Source: Fibrobacterota bacterium (GTDB taxonomy: Bacteria; Fibrobacterota; Fibrobacteria; UBA11236). Taken from it: a stretch of 41,982 bases of DNA. The translations under genes and the position numbers were made by a program. Each line of letters opens with the position of its first letter. The first letter of the stretch is position 1. Below the pieces are notes generated by a model. It was not told the origin of the DNA. It ran no database searches and was given only the letters and a program-made list of their open reading frames with translations. Below are positions 5,067 to 22,629 of the stretch, in pieces. The stretch lies in contig JAEKLQ010000079.1 of NCBI GenBank assembly GCA_019509785.1, forward strand, positions 1-41,982, read 5' to 3'.

Positions 5067-6674
5067 TCAGGCCTTGATTGCCGCTTCGGCCCTGGGAGCC
5101 GGCGTTTCCGCCAGAGGAGCCGCTTCCCGCACGGTTTCCTGATGGGAGTGGCTATGCGAAGACGCCGGGCGCGCCTTGGCCGCGTATCCGCTCGCCTCTT
5201 GCGGCGCCCCATGGCGCTTGAACAAGTGTTTGACCAGGGTACCCGCGCCGCGCAGGACGCGATAGCGTTCGCGGCTGTTGGTGAGGGCCATCTTGGCTTG
5301 CTTGGCGATGTAGGCCGGGCGCAGGTAGAATTCGCGGCGGGCGCGATCGCAGAAGTCCACCAGGTCCTGGGAGGTGAGTCCCTTGCGGATGACGGTGGTA
5401 TTGTGCTGCCCGTCCTTGTCCAGCCATTGATCGTAATCCTCGCTGGCCAATTCGCCGCGGGAACGCGCCTCATCGTAGGCGGTGGTGCCGGGGTAGGCCA
5501 TGATGGGATAGAACTGGGCCGTATTCGGGTTCAGCTTCTTCGCCATCTCGAGGGTGCCGTTCAGGGTTTCCTTGGTATCGCCCAGGTTACCCACCATGAA
5601 GCAACCGTGGATGAGGATGCCGGCCTTGTTGGCGGCGTCCATGAACTTCTCCGACATGCCGCCGGCCAGGCCCTTCTTCACGTTCTTCAGGACTTCCATC
5701 GAGCTCGACTCGAAACCGACGCAGAGTTCGCGGCAGCCGGCCTTCTTCATCACGTCCAGCACTTCGTATTTCACGTCGGCGCGGGCATTGGCCGACCAGG
5801 TGACCTTGAGGCCGCGGTTGATGACTTCCTGGCACAGTTCGGCGGTGCGGGAGGGATGGGCGGTAAAGGTATCGTCCTCGAAGAAAATCTCGCCCAGATC
5901 GGGGAACTCGGCCTTGATGTAGGCCATTTCGTCCACCACGTCCTTGATGCTGCGCTTGCGGTAGGTATGGCCGGTCAAGGTTTGCGGGATTACGCAATAG
6001 GTGCAGCGGAAAGGGCAGCCGCGACCCGACAGGATCACGATGAGCGGATTGATGTTGGCGCCGTAGAAATAGCGCTTGTAGCAAGAGAAGAGGTGCTTGC
6101 GGTAGACCTTGCTGACCCAGGGCAGGGTGTCCAGGTTCTCGATCTTGGGACGCTCGGGATTGCGGACCAGATCTTCGGCCTGTCCTTCGCCTTTGCGCCA
6201 GGAAATGCCCAGGATCTTGCGCTTCTCTTCCGGGCCGTCGCCGCGGAGATGGCGGACCAGTTCGCGGGCGGTATAATCGGCCTCGCCCGAGATGACGTAA
6301 TCGACGGCGGCTTCGCGCTCGAGGATTTCCACGGGCTCGGCGGTGGCATGGGTGCCCATCATGGCGATTTCGCAGCCGAGGGCTTCTTTGAGGGCCTTGC
6401 CGACCCGCATGTCGTTATTAATGGAGGGGGTGCTGGTATTGAGCACTGCCAGTTGCGGTTTGAAGTCCTTGACCCGGTCGAGGGTTCCTTGCAGATCCAG
6501 ATCCATGGCGGGAGAGTCGATCACCATGATCTCGTTCCCGTCCTCCTCCACGCAGCCGGCTGCATAGGCCATGAACATGGGCCAATACAGGGTGCTCGAC
6601 TTCGTGACGCAAGGGCTCCTCGATTCCCGGGAAAACATGGGGAAATAAGGAGGATTCAGGAACAGGACCTTCAT
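5067..6674 (-). CDS. B12-binding-domain radical SAM protein
   Basis: The protein has 535 residues. It starts MKVLFLNPPYFP, the opening strand typical of the cobalamin-binding-like domain of this family (about residues 1-150). The radical SAM domain carries C220, C224 and C227 in SGRGCPFRCTYC, with FFEDDTF and GFESSS stretches further on, as in the BchE/Elp3-like B12 radical SAM group. The classical DxHxxG cobalamin-ligand motif is not evident, so B12 may be bound base-off differently or not at all. The C-terminal 60 residues are Ala/Pro/His-rich and probably disordered. GGAGG lies 8 bases before the ATG at 6674. Substrate unknown; such enzymes often methylate unactivated carbons in lipid or secondary metabolism. 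Confidence 0.85.
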   Translation of the reverse strand: MKVLFLNPPYFPMFSRESRSPCVTKSSTLYWPMFMAYAAGCVEEDGNEIMVIDSPAMDLDLQGTLDRVKDFKPQLAVLNTSTPSINNDMRVGKALKEALGCEIAMMGTHATAEPVEILEREAAVDYVISGEADYTARELVRHLRGDGPEEKRKILGISWRKGEGQAEDLVRNPERPKIENLDTLPWVSKVYRKHLFSCYKRYFYGANINPLIVILSGRGCPFRCTYCVIPQTLTGHTYRKRSIKDVVDEMAYIKAEFPDLGEIFFEDDTFTAHPSRTAELCQEVINRGLKVTWSANARADVKYEVLDVMKKAGCRELCVGFESSSMEVLKNVKKGLAGGMSEKFMDAANKAGILIHGCFMVGNLGDTKETLNGTLEMAKKLNPNTAQFYPIMAYPGTTAYDEARSRGELASEDYDQWLDKDGQHNTTVIRKGLTSQDLVDFCDRARREFYLRPAYIAKQAKMALTNSRERYRVLRGAGTLVKHLFKRHGAPQEASGYAAKARPASSHSHSHQETVREAAPLAETPAPRAEAAIKA

Positions 6675-6799
6675 AGGCAAAGCCTCCGCAAAAAAAAAGG
6701 CCGAAACAGGTAAATGGCTGGCCCGAGTTACCCCTAACGGGGGCCGGGCCCAAACTACCATGTTCGGACGGCAATTCCAAATATACCCGATGGGCCTGA
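6675..6799 (-). other. Gap with T-run upstream of the radical SAM gene
   Basis: This gap separates the Omp85-type gene from the radical SAM gene on the minus strand. It holds a small CCCC-GTTA-GGGG hairpin and, on the minus strand, a run of nine T (plus-strand A at 6690-6698) directly after GGCC, which could pair with a GGCC 18 bases earlier. This looks like a weak intrinsic terminator for the upstream gene placed just before the ribosome-binding site of the next one. Confidence 0.3.
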
Positions 6800-16987: not shown

Positions 16988-17123
16988 GCTGCGCCCTCCC
17001 GATGGTCCGGGAGGCGGCAACGCCGGGCTCCCGAAAAACGGGTATAAACTACTATAGTTGCCCCGCCGGCAGCAGTTTTGCGGTTTTTGCTACGTTTGCC
17101 ACAGCAGTATAAGGGGCCTAAGC

Positions 17124-18401
17124 ATGTTGGATCCGCGGTTGTACCGGGAAGATGTGGACACGATCAGGAAAGGGCTGGAACGCCGGGGAGCCAAGGTCGA
17201 TCTGGATGCGATGGTAAACATCGACATCGAGAAGCGCAAGTCGAACCTACGCCTCGACCAGCTCAAGGCCGAGCGCAACGCGGCGACCGAGCAGATCGCG
17301 CAGATGAAGCGCGCCGGCCAGGACGCCAAGGATGCCATCGAGAAGACCCGCACCCTCGGGGATGCCCTTAAGGCGGAGCAAGAACGTTTCGACGATCTCG
17401 ATAGCCGCTTCCGCGCCCTGGCCCTGTTGGTTCCCAACCTTCCCCACCCTTCCGTTCCGGACGGCAAATCGTCGGCGGATAACGTGGTCCGCCGCGAATG
17501 GGGCCCGAAGTACGCCGGACCCAAGCCCAAGCATCATCTGGATTTCGGCAAGGAACTGGGCCTTTTCGATTTCGAACGCGGGGCCAAGATCACCGGCAGC
17601 GGCTTCCCCATCTACGTAGGACTGGGGGCGCGCCTGGAGCGGGCGATGCTGAATTTCTTCCTCGACGAGCACACCAAGCACAACGGGTTCACGGAAATCT
17701 CGCCTCCCTTCGTGGTCAACCAGGCTTCCATGATCGGCACCGGCCAATTGCCCAAGTTCGCCGAGGACATGTACACCATCGGCGAGGACGGCCTGTACCT
17801 GGTGCCGACCGCCGAGGTGCCGGTGACCAATATGCACGCCAACGAGATGCTGGAGCTGGCCCAATTGCCCATCTCCTACGCGGCCTATACGGCCTGCTTC
17901 CGGCGCGAGGCCGGTTCGTGGGGCAAGGAAACGCGCGGCTTCCAACGCCTGCACCAGTTCGACAAGGTGGAGATGGTGATGTTCTCCGATCCGGCCAAGT
18001 CGTACGAAGCGCATGAAAAGCTCGTCGGTTATTCCGAGGCCTTGCTCAAGAAGCTGGGCCTGCATTACCGCGTGCTGGAGCTATGCACGGGCGATATGGG
18101 TTTCGGCGCCGCGAAGTGCTACGATCTGGAAGTGTTCGCCCCCGCCGAAGAACGCTGGCTGGAAGTCTCGTCGGTTTCCAACTACGAGGACTTCCAGGCC
18201 CGCCGCGCCAACATCCGGACCAAGATCGAGGGAAAGCCGCATTTCGTGCATACCTTGAACGGATCGGGCCTGGCGACCCCGCGCGTCCTGGTGGCCTTGC
18301 TGGAACGGAACCAAACGCCCGAGGGCGGTTTCAGGATCCCGGAATGCCTCGTTCCCTATATGGACGGTTTGACCGAAATCAAGCCCAAGAAGAAGGGTTA
18401 A
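17124..18401 (+). CDS. serS: Seryl-tRNA synthetase
   Basis: SerS charges tRNA-Ser with serine. The 425-residue protein has the N-terminal coiled-coil arm (about residues 28-100, heptad-like, rich in Lys, Glu and Leu) and the class II catalytic core: motif 1 near GFTEISPPFVV, motif 2 in CFRREAGSWGKETRG and motif 3 in GSGLATPRVLVALLERNQ. AAGGGG lies 8 bases before the ATG at 17124, which gives the standard MLDPRLYRED start. The stop codon and last glycine codon lie inside a palindromic intergenic repeat (18395-18471), so the very C-terminus (KPKKKG) is partly specified by that repeat. Confidence 0.97.
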   Translation: MLDPRLYREDVDTIRKGLERRGAKVDLDAMVNIDIEKRKSNLRLDQLKAERNAATEQIAQMKRAGQDAKDAIEKTRTLGDALKAEQERFDDLDSRFRALALLVPNLPHPSVPDGKSSADNVVRREWGPKYAGPKPKHHLDFGKELGLFDFERGAKITGSGFPIYVGLGARLERAMLNFFLDEHTKHNGFTEISPPFVVNQASMIGTGQLPKFAEDMYTIGEDGLYLVPTAEVPVTNMHANEMLELAQLPISYAAYTACFRREAGSWGKETRGFQRLHQFDKVEMVMFSDPAKSYEAHEKLVGYSEALLKKLGLHYRVLELCTGDMGFGAAKCYDLEVFAPAEERWLEVSSVSNYEDFQARRANIRTKIEGKPHFVHTLNGSGLATPRVLVALLERNQTPEGGFRIPECLVPYMDGLTEIKPKKKG

Positions 18402-18479
18402 GGGTACAGGGTAAAGGGTTCAGGGTTATGATGCGGCGATCGCATTCCCCTTTACCCTGTACCCTTAACCCTGTACCCT
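18395..18479. repeat. Palindromic heptamer-repeat element, copy 1
   Basis: A 24-bp perfect inverted repeat: left arm 18395-18418, right arm 18448-18471, with a 29-base loop. Each arm is a run of degenerate 7-base units of the form AGGGTWM (GGGTTAA, GGGTACA, GGGTAAA, GGGTTCA). The right arm continues one more unit to 18479. The serS stop codon (18399-18401) lies in the left arm. A second copy is at 38729-38809; the right arms agree at 31 of 32 positions. It may act as a bidirectional 3'-end structure, but no T-run follows. Confidence 0.85.
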
Positions 18480-18506
18480 AATCGAGAGTCAACTACAGGG
18501 GATCGT

Positions 18507-19841
18507 TTGGCACCAGAGATAAAGTTTCCCACCCGCTTCCTCCGCCTTTTGCCGCCTTTGGGGAAGCTGCGCGGTTGGGTCACCTCGCTGTCGCTGGCCA
18601 ATATCAAATACATCCTGTTCACCAGCGCGCTCGCGCTGCTGGCCTGCTTCACCATACTCAACCAGATATTCATCAGCAATCTCGAGTCCCAGGCCCTCCA
18701 GATCAACGAGAAGGAGGCGCGCCTCTACGCGGTGGCCATTTCGGAGCAGCTGAACCACGAAGAGATCAACGTCATCTTCAACGAGATCGTGCGCAAGTCG
18801 CAGGTCCCCATGGTCATCACCGACAACCAGAACGTTCCCATCAACTGGAACAACATCAGCTACCGGTTCTGGAGCAAAGGCCGATCGAAGGTTCCGCAAG
18901 TGCCCTTCGCGTACCTGGCGAAAGCGGAGCAGGAGTTCCTGCTCAAGCTGGTGAAGGACATGGACAAGAAGAACCAGCCCCTGGAGCTGGAGGCCGAAGG
19001 CCATACCTTCGGTTTCCTGCACTACGGGGAGTTCACCTTGTTGCACATCCTCTCCTGGATGCCGATGGTGGAGCTGGTCATCATCTTCCTTTTCTGCTTC
19101 GTGGGATACTTCGGGTTCCACATCATCCGCTCCAACGAGCAGAGTTCCCTCTGGGTCGGGCTGGCCAAGGAGACGGCGCATCAGTTGGGGACCCCCATCT
19201 CATCGCTACTGGGGTGGATCGACTTCATGCGCATGAAACTGGAAAACCTTCCCGAGCCGGAAAAGAACCTGCGCATCCTGGGCGAGATGGAAAGCGACAT
19301 CTCCCGCCTCAACAAGGTGGCCACGCGCTTCTCGCAAATCGGATCCATCCCCGAATTAAAGCAGGCCGACCTCAACGAAATCCTGGGTTTTACGGCCCAT
19401 TACTTCTCCTCCCGGCTGCCGCACTTGGGCAAAAGGATCAATATCGAGCTCCATCTCGGCGAGCTGCCGGAAATCCTCATCAACAAGGAGCTGATCGGGT
19501 GGGTCATCGAGAACCTGATCCGCAACGCCGTGGACGCCATCGAAGTGGAAGCCGGAGTCATCTCCATTACCACCCGCTACGCCGAGGAAGAGGGGACGGT
19601 GCATATTTCCATGGCCGATAACGGAAAAGGCATCCCCCGCGAGCACCTCAAGCATATTTTTAACCCCGGCTTTACCACCAAGAAGCGCGGTTGGGGGCTG
19701 GGACTGAGCCTGTGCCGCCGCATCGTAAATGAATATCACGACGGAAAAATCTATGTTGAGAAGAGCCAGAAGGACGTGGGGACGCAGTTCGAGATAGTGC
19801 TGCCCCTAGCTCCGGAAAGGACTTCCAGGAAGAAGCCATGA
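18507..19841 (+). CDS. porY: Sensor histidine kinase, PorY-like
   Basis: A 444-residue membrane kinase. Transmembrane helices at about 34-55 and 187-206 flank a periplasmic sensor region of about 130 residues. There is no HAMP domain to be seen. The phosphorylated histidine is H225 in LAKETAHQLGTPISSLLGW. The ATPase domain has the N box ENLIRNAVDAI, G1 DNGKGIP, F box FNPGFTTKKRG and G2 GLGLSL. In Bacteroidota, PorY phosphorylates PorX to control type IX secretion genes. The assignment here rests on the AHQLGTPISSL style of H box and the overlapping PorX-like partner. The start is TTG at 18507, with AGGGGA upstream; the stop overlaps porX by 4 bases (ATGA). Confidence 0.85.
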   Translation: MAPEIKFPTRFLRLLPPLGKLRGWVTSLSLANIKYILFTSALALLACFTILNQIFISNLESQALQINEKEARLYAVAISEQLNHEEINVIFNEIVRKSQVPMVITDNQNVPINWNNISYRFWSKGRSKVPQVPFAYLAKAEQEFLLKLVKDMDKKNQPLELEAEGHTFGFLHYGEFTLLHILSWMPMVELVIIFLFCFVGYFGFHIIRSNEQSSLWVGLAKETAHQLGTPISSLLGWIDFMRMKLENLPEPEKNLRILGEMESDISRLNKVATRFSQIGSIPELKQADLNEILGFTAHYFSSRLPHLGKRINIELHLGELPEILINKELIGWVIENLIRNAVDAIEVEAGVISITTRYAEEEGTVHISMADNGKGIPREHLKHIFNPGFTTKKRGWGLGLSLCRRIVNEYHDGKIYVEKSQKDVGTQFEIVLPLAPERTSRKKP

Positions 19842-21397
19842 GCATTGCCGGCAAACGCCTCCTTTGGGTCGATGACGAAATCGAATTCCTCCGGGCCCAT
19901 ATCATGTTCATGGAAGAGCACGGCTACGTGGTCGAGAAAGCCACCAATGGCGACGATGCCGTGGCCATGATCAAGAGCGCGCCCTACGATCTGGTCCTGC
20001 TCGACGAGCAGATGGCCGGCAAGGACGGCCTCTCCACCCTGGAAGAGATCAAGGATTACGATCAGAACATCCCCGTGGTGATGGTGACCAAGAGCGAAGA
20101 AGAGCGCCTGATGGAAGCCGCCCTGGGCCGCAACATCAACGGCTACCTCATCAAGCCGGTGAATCCCTCGCAGATCCTTTCGGTATGCAAGGGCATCCTG
20201 CATTCGCGGGCCATCCGCAGCAACCACGTGACATCGGCCTACGTGCGCGAGCTCTCCGAGAACAAGTCCAGCCTGATGACCAACCTGCTTCCCCAGAAAT
20301 GGGAGAAGATCTTCTTCCAGCTCTGCAAATGGGACAACGATCTGCAAGCCCTCGTGGACCAGGGCATGATAGACACCCATATCGGGCAGAAGAAGGAAAT
20401 CGCCAAGCGGTTCATCTCCTACGTCGAGGAGAACTACGTTTCCTGGTTCGGCAAGAAGGGCGGCAACCCCAACATGTCCACCCAGGCGCTCAAGCGCAAG
20501 GTCATCCCGCCCCTTAAAAAGGGGGAGAAGGTCTGCTTGGTCGTAATGGCGGGTTTCCGGGTGGATCAATGGCTGGCCCTGCAACCCCTGCTCGAACCCT
20601 TCTTCAAGGTCGAGAACGCCATCTCCTGGGCGCTCCTCCCCAGCGAAAAGACCAACTGCCGCGCCGGGCTCTTCTCGGGCCAATCGCCCCGCGAAGTCAG
20701 CCTCAAGCAGCCGAGCTTGTGGAAGAAGATGCAGGAAGAAGAGGACAAGGCTCCCTATGAGCGGGAGCTACTGCGCCAGAATCTGCGCATCAACGGCATC
20801 GATCTCGAGGATCCCAAGATCATCCACTTGCGCCAACCCGAGGACGGCGAGAAGCTGCTCGCCGATCTTCCCAAGTACGAGGAAGAATCCCTGCTCACCG
20901 TCGTCGTCGAATTCTTCGATATGCTCAACCAGCTCCGCCAGGCGAGCCCGGTCCTCAAGGAAATCGCCCCGGACGAAAAAGGCTTCCGCGAATTGGCGCG
21001 CACCTGGTTCAAATCGTCCAAGCTTTTCGAAATGCTGAAGGCGATGGCGGAGAAGAACCGTACCGTGATCCTGACCAGCGATCATGGCACCGTCCTGGTG
21101 GACGCGCCGGCCGAGGTCTTCTGCCAGGAAGAAAAGACGCCCAACCCGCGCGTGAAGATCGGCCAGAATATCTCCTGCGATGAGCGTCACGCTTTGTTCG
21201 TGGAAACCCCCGTCCAGTTCGGCCTGCCCGGCGAAGTCGGCGAGATCGCCTACGCCATCGCGAAGGACAACTACTACTTCGTCTACCCCAACAAGTTCCA
21301 GTACTTCGTGACGCAGTTTAAGGGGCAAATGGTGGGGGGCGGGTTGTCCATCGAGGAGCTGCTGGTTCCTTTGGTGACTTTGACTCCGAAGACTTGA
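19838..21397 (+). CDS. porX: Response regulator with PglZ domain, PorX-like
   Basis: A 519-residue protein. Residues 1-120 are a receiver domain with acidic D12 and D13, phosphoacceptor D56 (LVLLDEQMAG), T84 and K106 (YLIKPVNP). A helical middle section (about 125-220) leads to a PglZ domain of the alkaline-phosphatase superfamily, with GFRVDQWLALQPLL, the catalytic-region SEKTNCRAGLFSG and the metal-site TSDHGTVLVD. PorX of Bacteroidota has this receiver-PglZ plan, binds zinc, hydrolyses cyclic oligonucleotides and acts with the sigma factor SigP on T9SS genes. There is no DNA-binding domain, so an indirect mechanism is expected here too. It overlaps porY by 4 bases. A 815-bp structured gap follows. 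Confidence 0.9.
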   Translation: MSIAGKRLLWVDDEIEFLRAHIMFMEEHGYVVEKATNGDDAVAMIKSAPYDLVLLDEQMAGKDGLSTLEEIKDYDQNIPVVMVTKSEEERLMEAALGRNINGYLIKPVNPSQILSVCKGILHSRAIRSNHVTSAYVRELSENKSSLMTNLLPQKWEKIFFQLCKWDNDLQALVDQGMIDTHIGQKKEIAKRFISYVEENYVSWFGKKGGNPNMSTQALKRKVIPPLKKGEKVCLVVMAGFRVDQWLALQPLLEPFFKVENAISWALLPSEKTNCRAGLFSGQSPREVSLKQPSLWKKMQEEEDKAPYERELLRQNLRINGIDLEDPKIIHLRQPEDGEKLLADLPKYEEESLLTVVVEFFDMLNQLRQASPVLKEIAPDEKGFRELARTWFKSSKLFEMLKAMAEKNRTVILTSDHGTVLVDAPAEVFCQEEKTPNPRVKIGQNISCDERHALFVETPVQFGLPGEVGEIAYAIAKDNYYFVYPNKFQYFVTQFKGQMVGGGLSIEELLVPLVTLTPKT

Positions 21398-22212
21398 GGC
21401 TGCAGTGGTGGTGCGTGGAGCGCTGTTGGGCTGGGTCTGGGCGGGGCCGGGGGGCCGGTTCGCCTCAGACGCTCGCTAATCGGTTCCACCCGGTCCATCC
21501 ACGTCCCGGGCAAGTGGGCGCCCGCGGAACCAAACTGTTGATCGGCTCGCCGGCTACCGCGCTGGTCTTATGGCTGGGCCATTTGTGTACCGCTCCTCCT
21601 CGCGGGGTCCCTTCGGACTGGGTCCTTAACTGCCCCCCTCCGCTCATCCGCGCGACACGACCGCCCCGACAGACCTTAGGGAGCTTCCTATCCACGCCAC
21701 TCATCGACCGCGCACATCGAAGGCCAATCCACCTAGGGCGAGAATGCGAGCCGGGCTCAAGCGGCGGTCCCGGATGCTTTTTCAAAACGCTGTTCCTTAT
21801 GGCTACCTCTTCCAACGCTTTTCCTTAAAGCACCGATCAAGGTGTCTGCGTGGATTGTCCTTGTCCCTCCCGTCCCTCCCGTCCCGCGCGTATCCCAGCG
21901 CGCGGTCCCGGCGCCGGTGCGGCAGGGCGAAGGCGGGGGTCGGACCCGGGCGCTCCGCGGCGAGTTGGGCGCAGGGCCCGGCGCGGCCGGACCGGCCACC
22001 CCGGCAGCGCCTGCAACGACGTCATTCATCGATGCCGCATGCGCGTTGCGGAGGGATATCGATCCCGTGTTGGCCGGTCCGGCCATCGATCAAACCCGGT
22101 CGATGCGCCGGGACCGAAGCCCATCCGAGCCCCGGAGCGCCCGGGGCCGCCCCCCGCCGGACCTCTGCAGCACAGGACGCATGGACCCCCGCGATTCCTA
22201 TTTTGATCCCCC
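21398..22212. other. Long GC-rich, hairpin-rich gap between porX and tsaE
   Basis: 815 bases without a convincing gene; frames on both strands translate to Pro/Arg/Gly-rich sequence or run through tsaE in another frame. Strong inverted repeats include 21435-21443 with 21461-21470, GGTTCC 21482-21487 with GGAACC 21526-21531, ATCGAT 22058-22063 with 22085-22090 around a GGCCGG-T-CCGGCC palindrome, and a CCCTCCCGT direct repeat near 21864. A hairpin with T-run at 21751-21782 divides the gap. The first 380 bases could be a structured 3' UTR or an RNA gene. No tmRNA, RNase P, SRP RNA or tRNA signature was found. Confidence 0.5.
21751..21782 (+). terminator. Weak intrinsic-terminator-like hairpin
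   Basis: CCGGG at 21751-21755 pairs with CCCGG at 21769-21773; four bases later a run of five T follows (21778-21782). The stem is short and the spacer is longer than ideal. It is the only terminator-like site between porX and tsaE. Confidence 0.33.
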
Positions 22213-22629
22213 ATGGAAGAGATCCGCACCCACTCCGAAGAAGCCTCGGAGGCCTGGGCCCGCGCCTTCGCAACGCGCCTCAAGGCCGGGGACGGGGTCG
22301 CGCTATCCGGGGACCTCGGCGCGGGAAAGACCGTCGTTTGCCGGGGCATCGCCCGCGGGCTCGGATTTCCGGGCGACGTCCATTCGCCTTCTTACGCCTT
22401 GGTCCACGAGTATCCCGGGGGCAGCCTGCCCCTCTTCCATATGGACCTGTACCGGCTGGCACCGGGATCGGATTGGGAAGAGATCGGGCTCGATCATTAT
22501 TTCCGGCAAGGCGGCGTATGCCTGGTGGAATGGGCGGAGCGTCTTCCCGCCGGAACGACGTTCACCTGGCGGATCGACCTCACCGCGGACGGCCCGTCGG
22601 ATCGGATAATCCGCGTCGCGCGCGACTAG
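22213..22629 (+). CDS. tsaE: tRNA threonylcarbamoyladenosine biosynthesis ATPase TsaE
   Basis: TsaE is the P-loop ATPase that resets the TsaB-TsaD complex making t6A37 in ANN-decoding tRNAs. The 138-residue protein has a Walker A motif GDLGAGKT at about 33-40, the family motifs SPSYALVHEY and FHMDLYRL, and VEWAERLP near residue 105. Length is normal. It stands alone after the long gap; tsaB and tsaD are not in the window. It is convergent with the next minus-strand gene, 4 bases away. Confidence 0.95.
   Translation: MEEIRTHSEEASEAWARAFATRLKAGDGVALSGDLGAGKTVVCRGIARGLGFPGDVHSPSYALVHEYPGGSLPLFHMDLYRLAPGSDWEEIGLDHYFRQGGVCLVEWAERLPAGTTFTWRIDLTADGPSDRIIRVARD

Follow-up and report, generated by a model that had tools for sequence, protein, structure and literature searches.

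A PorY-PorX operon of Fibrobacterota whose PorX carries a decayed PglZ active site

The window, meaning the whole 41,982-nucleotide stretch of DNA that was analysed, carries a porY-like kinase gene and a porX gene in one operon. PorX of the window has a complete receiver, and its PglZ domain has lost four of the seven catalytic and zinc-binding residues known from active PorX. We consider it likely that the pair is a Fibrobacterota PorY-PorX operon in which PorX serves as a phosphorylation-controlled pseudo-phosphodiesterase, probably acting on type IX secretion (T9SS).

Gene organization

The window belongs to a metagenome-assembled genome (MAG) of Fibrobacterota (5.4 Mb, 96% complete), so the host lies outside the Bacteroidota, as the initial annotation proposed. 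The pair and its main features upstream of the PglZ domain are the following.

18507..19841, + strand: porY-like sensor histidine kinase ORF, 444 aa, TTG start
18603..18659, + strand: kinase transmembrane segment 1, residues ~33-51 (Kyte-Doolittle)
19047..19130, + strand: kinase transmembrane segment 2, residues ~181-208 (Kyte-Doolittle)
19179..19181, + strand: kinase phosphoacceptor H225 in the H-box LWVGLAKETAHQLGTPISSL, common to the Bacteroidota kinase
19838..21397, + strand: porX, 519 aa, ATG start; receiver, three-helix linker and PglZ/alkaline-phosphatase-superfamily domain
19838..20212, + strand: PorX receiver, intact (D12, D13, D56, T84, K106; alignment)
20003..20005, + strand: PorX phosphoacceptor D56 (GAC; sequence and alignment)

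The ORF coordinates bear out a reported overlap of exactly 4 bases, the ATGA at 19838-19841. The kinase start position is kept in relatives, as ATG or TTG. Upstream of the pair is serS (17058-18401), and downstream, past a gap of 815 bases, is tsaE (22213-22629). The order serS-porY-porX-tsaE is the same in the four same-genus genomes compared, and the spacers before porY and after porX are not conserved among them. PorX of the nearest named relatives (Fibrobacteres/Fibrobacteria MAGs) is 87-89% identical to that of the window.

The pair had been placed between serS and a long structured gap. The upstream serS stands, and the gap (21398-22212) does contain long imperfect inverted repeats, with arms of 48 and 25 nt. 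It matched no Rfam family, no tRNA was found in it, and its sequence and length are unconserved in same-genus relatives; a structured RNA at this site was rejected on these grounds. With neither an Rfam family nor conservation in relatives, the gap has no evident bearing on the gene pair. At the same site a genome of the same genus (L009) has a different, near-perfect hairpin. The serS-porY spacer of the window (18402-18490) is a palindromic array of AGGGTACAGGGTTA-like units, and relatives carry other short repeats there, AT-rich or CCTAAA-like. Elsewhere in the window, the minus strand at 5067-6761 encodes a B12-binding radical SAM protein that resembles HpnJ, with a score of 382 bits where the cut-off is 577.6.

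The kinase

The kinase domain was recognized by Pfam as HATPase_c with 82 bits. The two hydrophobic segments are separated by ~130 residues, which are predicted to form an extracytoplasmic sensor region. In tblastn, the Parabacteroides distasonis kinase WP_057326855 shares 34.6% identity with the window kinase over 89%. Searched back into the window genome, it found this gene at 1.9e-66, the runner-up among 46 matches being at 4.5e-16. By these comparisons, which used the Parabacteroides homologue and not P. gingivalis PorY (PGN_2001), the window kinase appears clearly PorY-like: it and a Bacteroidota kinase are each other's best match. The two transmembrane segments and the common H-box, together with the reciprocal match, agree with the earlier naming of the gene as PorY-like.

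PorX and its receiver

The window PorX scores 512 bits against the curated profile T9SS_RR_PorX (NCBIfam NF052313, cut-off 300), the match covering residues 7-518. Pfam recognizes Response_reg (84 bits) and PglZ (44.7 bits, cut-off 25). In a search of solved-structure sequences, PorX of F. johnsoniae and P. gingivalis are full-length matches with E ~1e-99. The curated score and the full-length match uphold the naming of the regulator as PorX. The initial annotation had raised a grouping with BREX PglZ as the finding to guard against; the score for BREX_PglZ_3 is 73 bits (cut-off 250), and the PADLOC PglZ models reach at most 52 bits. A BREX PglZ origin was thus rejected.

The receiver residues DDDTK are complete in the window PorX and in all six genus members sampled, and in nearly all Fibrobacterota PorX aligned. 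Phylum-wide, the median identity is 63% for the receiver versus 31% for the PglZ domain. D56 and the TSDHG motif are present as first described, the motif being residues 413-417.

The PglZ active site

The catalytic and zinc-binding residues of F. johnsoniae PorX are T271, D237, D360, H364, D414, H415 and H499 (PMC11320123). T271, D237, D414 and H415 make up the Zn1 site, and D360, H364 and H499 the Zn2 site (PMC10951265). The corresponding positions in the window are given below, with F. johnsoniae numbering for the residues replaced.

20483..21394, + strand: PglZ domain, decayed active site, 3/7 catalytic and zinc residues kept (alignments)
20549..20551, + strand: A238 replacing zinc ligand D237 (HMMER pairwise and MAFFT)
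20648..20650, + strand: K271 replacing nucleophile T271 (HMMER pairwise and MAFFT)
20918-20920, + strand: D361, retained zinc ligand, equivalent to D360 (MAFFT alignment)
20930..20932, + strand: Q365 replacing zinc ligand H364 (HMMER pairwise and MAFFT); Q, N or L within the genus
21080..21085, + strand: D415 and H416 of TSDHG, retained zinc ligands, equivalent to D414 and H415 (MAFFT alignment)
21335..21337, + strand: G500 replacing zinc ligand H499 (HMMER pairwise and MAFFT)

The pairwise HMMER and MAFFT alignments give the same substitutions. Two PDB chains in which the nucleophile is mutated, to V in 8thp and to A in 7pvk, pin down its column independently. In the MAFFT alignment all seven residues are found in F. 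johnsoniae and P. gingivalis, and three of seven in the window PorX and all five genus mates sampled. The sequence of a Prevotella PorX also has all seven. Both zinc sites are hit in the window PorX: Zn1 lacks T271 and D237, and Zn2 lacks both of its histidines, H364 and H499. Two substrate-cleft residues differ as well (K329 to H, N357 to E), and R275 is retained. An AlphaFold prediction for the window PorX and four close relatives had a pLDDT of 41, too poor for a check of the site in three dimensions.

With four substitutions spanning both metal sites, the window PorX appears to be a clear case of a decayed site. The seven-residue set characterizes PorX proteins with biochemical activity, and the curated PorX model does not demand it. 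The initial annotation had expected the nuclease-like output to be active. The TSDHG motif by itself was misleading here: the nucleophile and three zinc ligands, four of the seven residues, are substituted. Judged by the catalytic and zinc residues in the MAFFT alignment, an active PglZ output was rejected as improbable.

Conservation of the kinase-PorX pair

A profile built from the kinase found it among 151 Fibrobacterota genomes in 33, and PorX is present in every one of these (Fisher p 5e-22; the genomes are related, so this value overstates their independence). In 31 of them the kinase gene and porX are direct neighbours with the same orientation. The only unlinked pairs in the phylum sample are in G003 (C4, C29) and G044 (C47/C116, C87), both of family f7 genus g18, where the genes are on different contigs. 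PorX was found in 48 of the 151 genomes, G023 and G056 having split or partial matches; 15 have PorX without the kinase, in G056 and G078 on contig fragments.

The constant company of PorX and the adjacency support the pairing of kinase and regulator that had been proposed. The initial annotation also presented the single operon as an arrangement outside the classical surroundings. The operon is confirmed, but the arrangement is the rule in the phylum wherever the kinase is present and is not specific to the window. The operon is independent genetic evidence that kinase and PorX are cognate, a relation that took biochemical work to establish in P. gingivalis. From the conserved co-occurrence and adjacency, we infer phosphotransfer from PorY to PorX.

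Decay and selection across the phylum

Only 4 of 46 Fibrobacterota PorX have the complete seven-residue site, and these belong to f9 (G008, G020) and f13 (G034, G072). The others keep five residues (two proteins), four (two proteins) or at most three (38 proteins), with none of the seven in f5. Dead enzymes are probably fewer than imperfect sites, for some changes, such as T to S at the nucleophile, may leave the enzyme active.

The PorX tree broadly tracks the families, which argues that the site decayed in place and not by replacement of the gene. With the seven columns masked and a third Bacteroidota sequence, from Prevotella, added, at least three changes between intact and decayed site are required on the tree. 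A single clade of all intact PorX was rejected only modestly (p 0.03).

Among six genomes of the genus, dN/dS has a median of 0.039 in the receiver, 0.075 in PglZ and 0.095 in the linker; with dS near 1 these values are approximate. Such low ratios within the genus indicate that the PorX protein is maintained, and the decayed PglZ domain is itself under purifying selection there (dN/dS about 0.08).

In the sister genus, f1 genus g2 (L066, L067, L069), the kinase is gone and the acidic pair DD of the receiver has become DP, DT or DG. Phosphorylation may have been lost from these receivers. On this pattern, catalysis may have gone first, then the kinase and finally the whole system, an order that we infer.

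Type IX secretion

SprA was found in 147 of 151 Fibrobacterota genomes including that of the window, the whole protein scoring 635 bits. The window genome also has a PorU-like sortase, whose 418.8 bits fall just below the cut-off of 420, and 20 sorting-domain matches above the family cut-off. The initial annotation had considered that the genome might have no T9SS core genes; SprA, the PorU-like sortase and C-terminal sorting domains are there.

The GldL profile gave no match in 151 genomes and the GldM profile no convincing match in 20 Fibrobacterota genomes, and the positive controls, including a Prevotella replicon, were silent for both. The GldK profile gave just short matches, in open frames of 924-943 aa. 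The Fibrobacterota T9SS motor may be very divergent or different.

Of the 89 Fibrobacterota genomes with completeness of 90% or more and contamination of 5% or less, all have SprA and only 30 have PorX, even by a phylum-specific profile. The profile searches of the 151 genomes found PorX and the kinase in no genome of family f3, which is probably Fibrobacteraceae; SprA was yet found in Fibrobacteraceae-like genomes. It has been stated that PorX occurs in all T9SS species (PMC10951265), and the genomes with SprA and without PorX make an exception to this statement. Since SprA is so nearly universal, also in genomes without PorX or PorY, the link between PorXY and T9SS in the phylum is weak. All 33 kinase-bearing genomes have a SprA match, and in the window organism PorXY would control T9SS.

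Proposed mechanism and alternatives

We propose that PorY, as a two-pass membrane kinase, would sense an envelope signal and phosphorylate D56 of PorX. The phosphorylated PorX would change conformation or dimerise through its receiver. Its output would be contact with partner proteins, most likely of the T9SS pathway, in the motor or in the control of gene expression. PglZ would carry out no phosphodiester hydrolysis by the known di-zinc mechanism and would persist as a module for structure, dimerisation or ligand binding.

In F. johnsoniae, the phosphorylated receiver by itself binds the motor protein GldL (PMC10951265). In P. gingivalis, the nucleophile mutant T272V keeps about half of gingipain secretion, and the double change of zinc ligands D361/H365 brings secretion down to 13-20%. 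Such published mutants suggest that PorX catalysis is only partly needed. The low secretion of the D361/H365 mutant also implies, by analogy, that damage to the zinc site may make a PorX work differently from that of P. gingivalis.

Related enzymes can shift metal ligands, and among alkaline-phosphatase relatives the use of metals varies. The window PorX could then still be an active phosphodiesterase with shifted ligands, for instance T272 beside K271, or with another metal. This general variability speaks for it, as do the retained D361, D415, H416 and R275 and the position of T272 one residue off the nucleophile column. We nevertheless hold it to be improbable. Ligands are missing from Zn1 (T271, D237) and Zn2 (H364, H499) alike, members of the genus have Q, N or L in the H364 column, as expected of an unconstrained position, and K329 and N357 of the substrate cleft are changed to H and E. 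Moreover, T271V or D360A/H364A alone abolished the activity of F. johnsoniae PorX (PMC11320123). Nor does the loss of catalysis look like a gene on its way out. The sister genus is without the kinase, the acidic pair of its receiver is partly gone, and the Fibrobacteraceae-like genomes have neither gene, as decay toward loss would predict; however, dN/dS is 0.04-0.09 in all domains of the window genus, the frame is open, and the kinase and receiver residues are intact in the six genus members sampled. A decaying porX is thus very hard to credit.

The target of the system is a separate question. The pair may descend from PorXY and now control something other than T9SS, the name PorX being historical. 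No por genes are beside the pair, PorLM was undetected by the GldL and GldM profiles (for which no positive control rang), Fibrobacteraceae-like genomes carry SprA without PorXY, and the enzyme part has diverged. On the other hand, all 33 kinase genomes have a SprA match, the window genome has the T9SS sortase and cargo with sorting domains, and the receiver, through which F. johnsoniae PorX binds GldL, is the best conserved part of PorX (63% against 31% median identity). We regard a target other than T9SS as rather unlikely, and favor a PorX that acts on T9SS as a pseudo-phosphodiesterase.

The same reading might extend to the phylum. Fibrobacterota PorX would then be a family of phosphorylation-controlled pseudo-phosphodiesterases that lost hydrolysis several times and kept the receiver and mostly the kinase, with a secretion-linked function that needs no catalysis and a dead PglZ serving as a dimerisation or ligand-sensing module. 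For this wider claim we see the case as evenly poised. No report of a catalytically decayed PorX was found in the literature searched, which did not cover NAR 2022 (PMC9757075). Fibrobacterota offer a natural test of the need for PorX catalysis, with four classes to compare: f9 and f13 have the site intact; f1 genus g1, f11 and much of f10 have it decayed and retain the kinase; f1 genus g2 and f10 genus g22 have it decayed and lack the kinase; and Fibrobacteraceae-like genomes carry SprA without PorX or PorY.

Comparison with known systems

The Parabacteroides distasonis kinase has a near-identical H-box and an identical TTKKRGWGLGLSL G2-box. It differs from the window kinase in its neighbours, which are a DUF177 gene and rpmF; no gene for a regulator follows it downstream (the kinase gene starts the record, so that its upstream side is unseen). 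In P. gingivalis, porX and porY are separate genes and have been called orphans (PMC4800418, PMC11320123), whereas the partner kinase in the window shares an operon with porX. BREX PglZ belongs to the same PglZ domain fold family and, unlike the window PorX, has no receiver. PorX of P. gingivalis and F. johnsoniae (PDB 7pv7, 7pva, 8ted, 8p6f) agree with the window PorX in domain order, length and complete receiver site, and differ from it in that four of the seven PglZ catalytic and zinc residues are substituted in the window. The window PorX is best read as a variant of these proteins with a pseudo-phosphodiesterase output.
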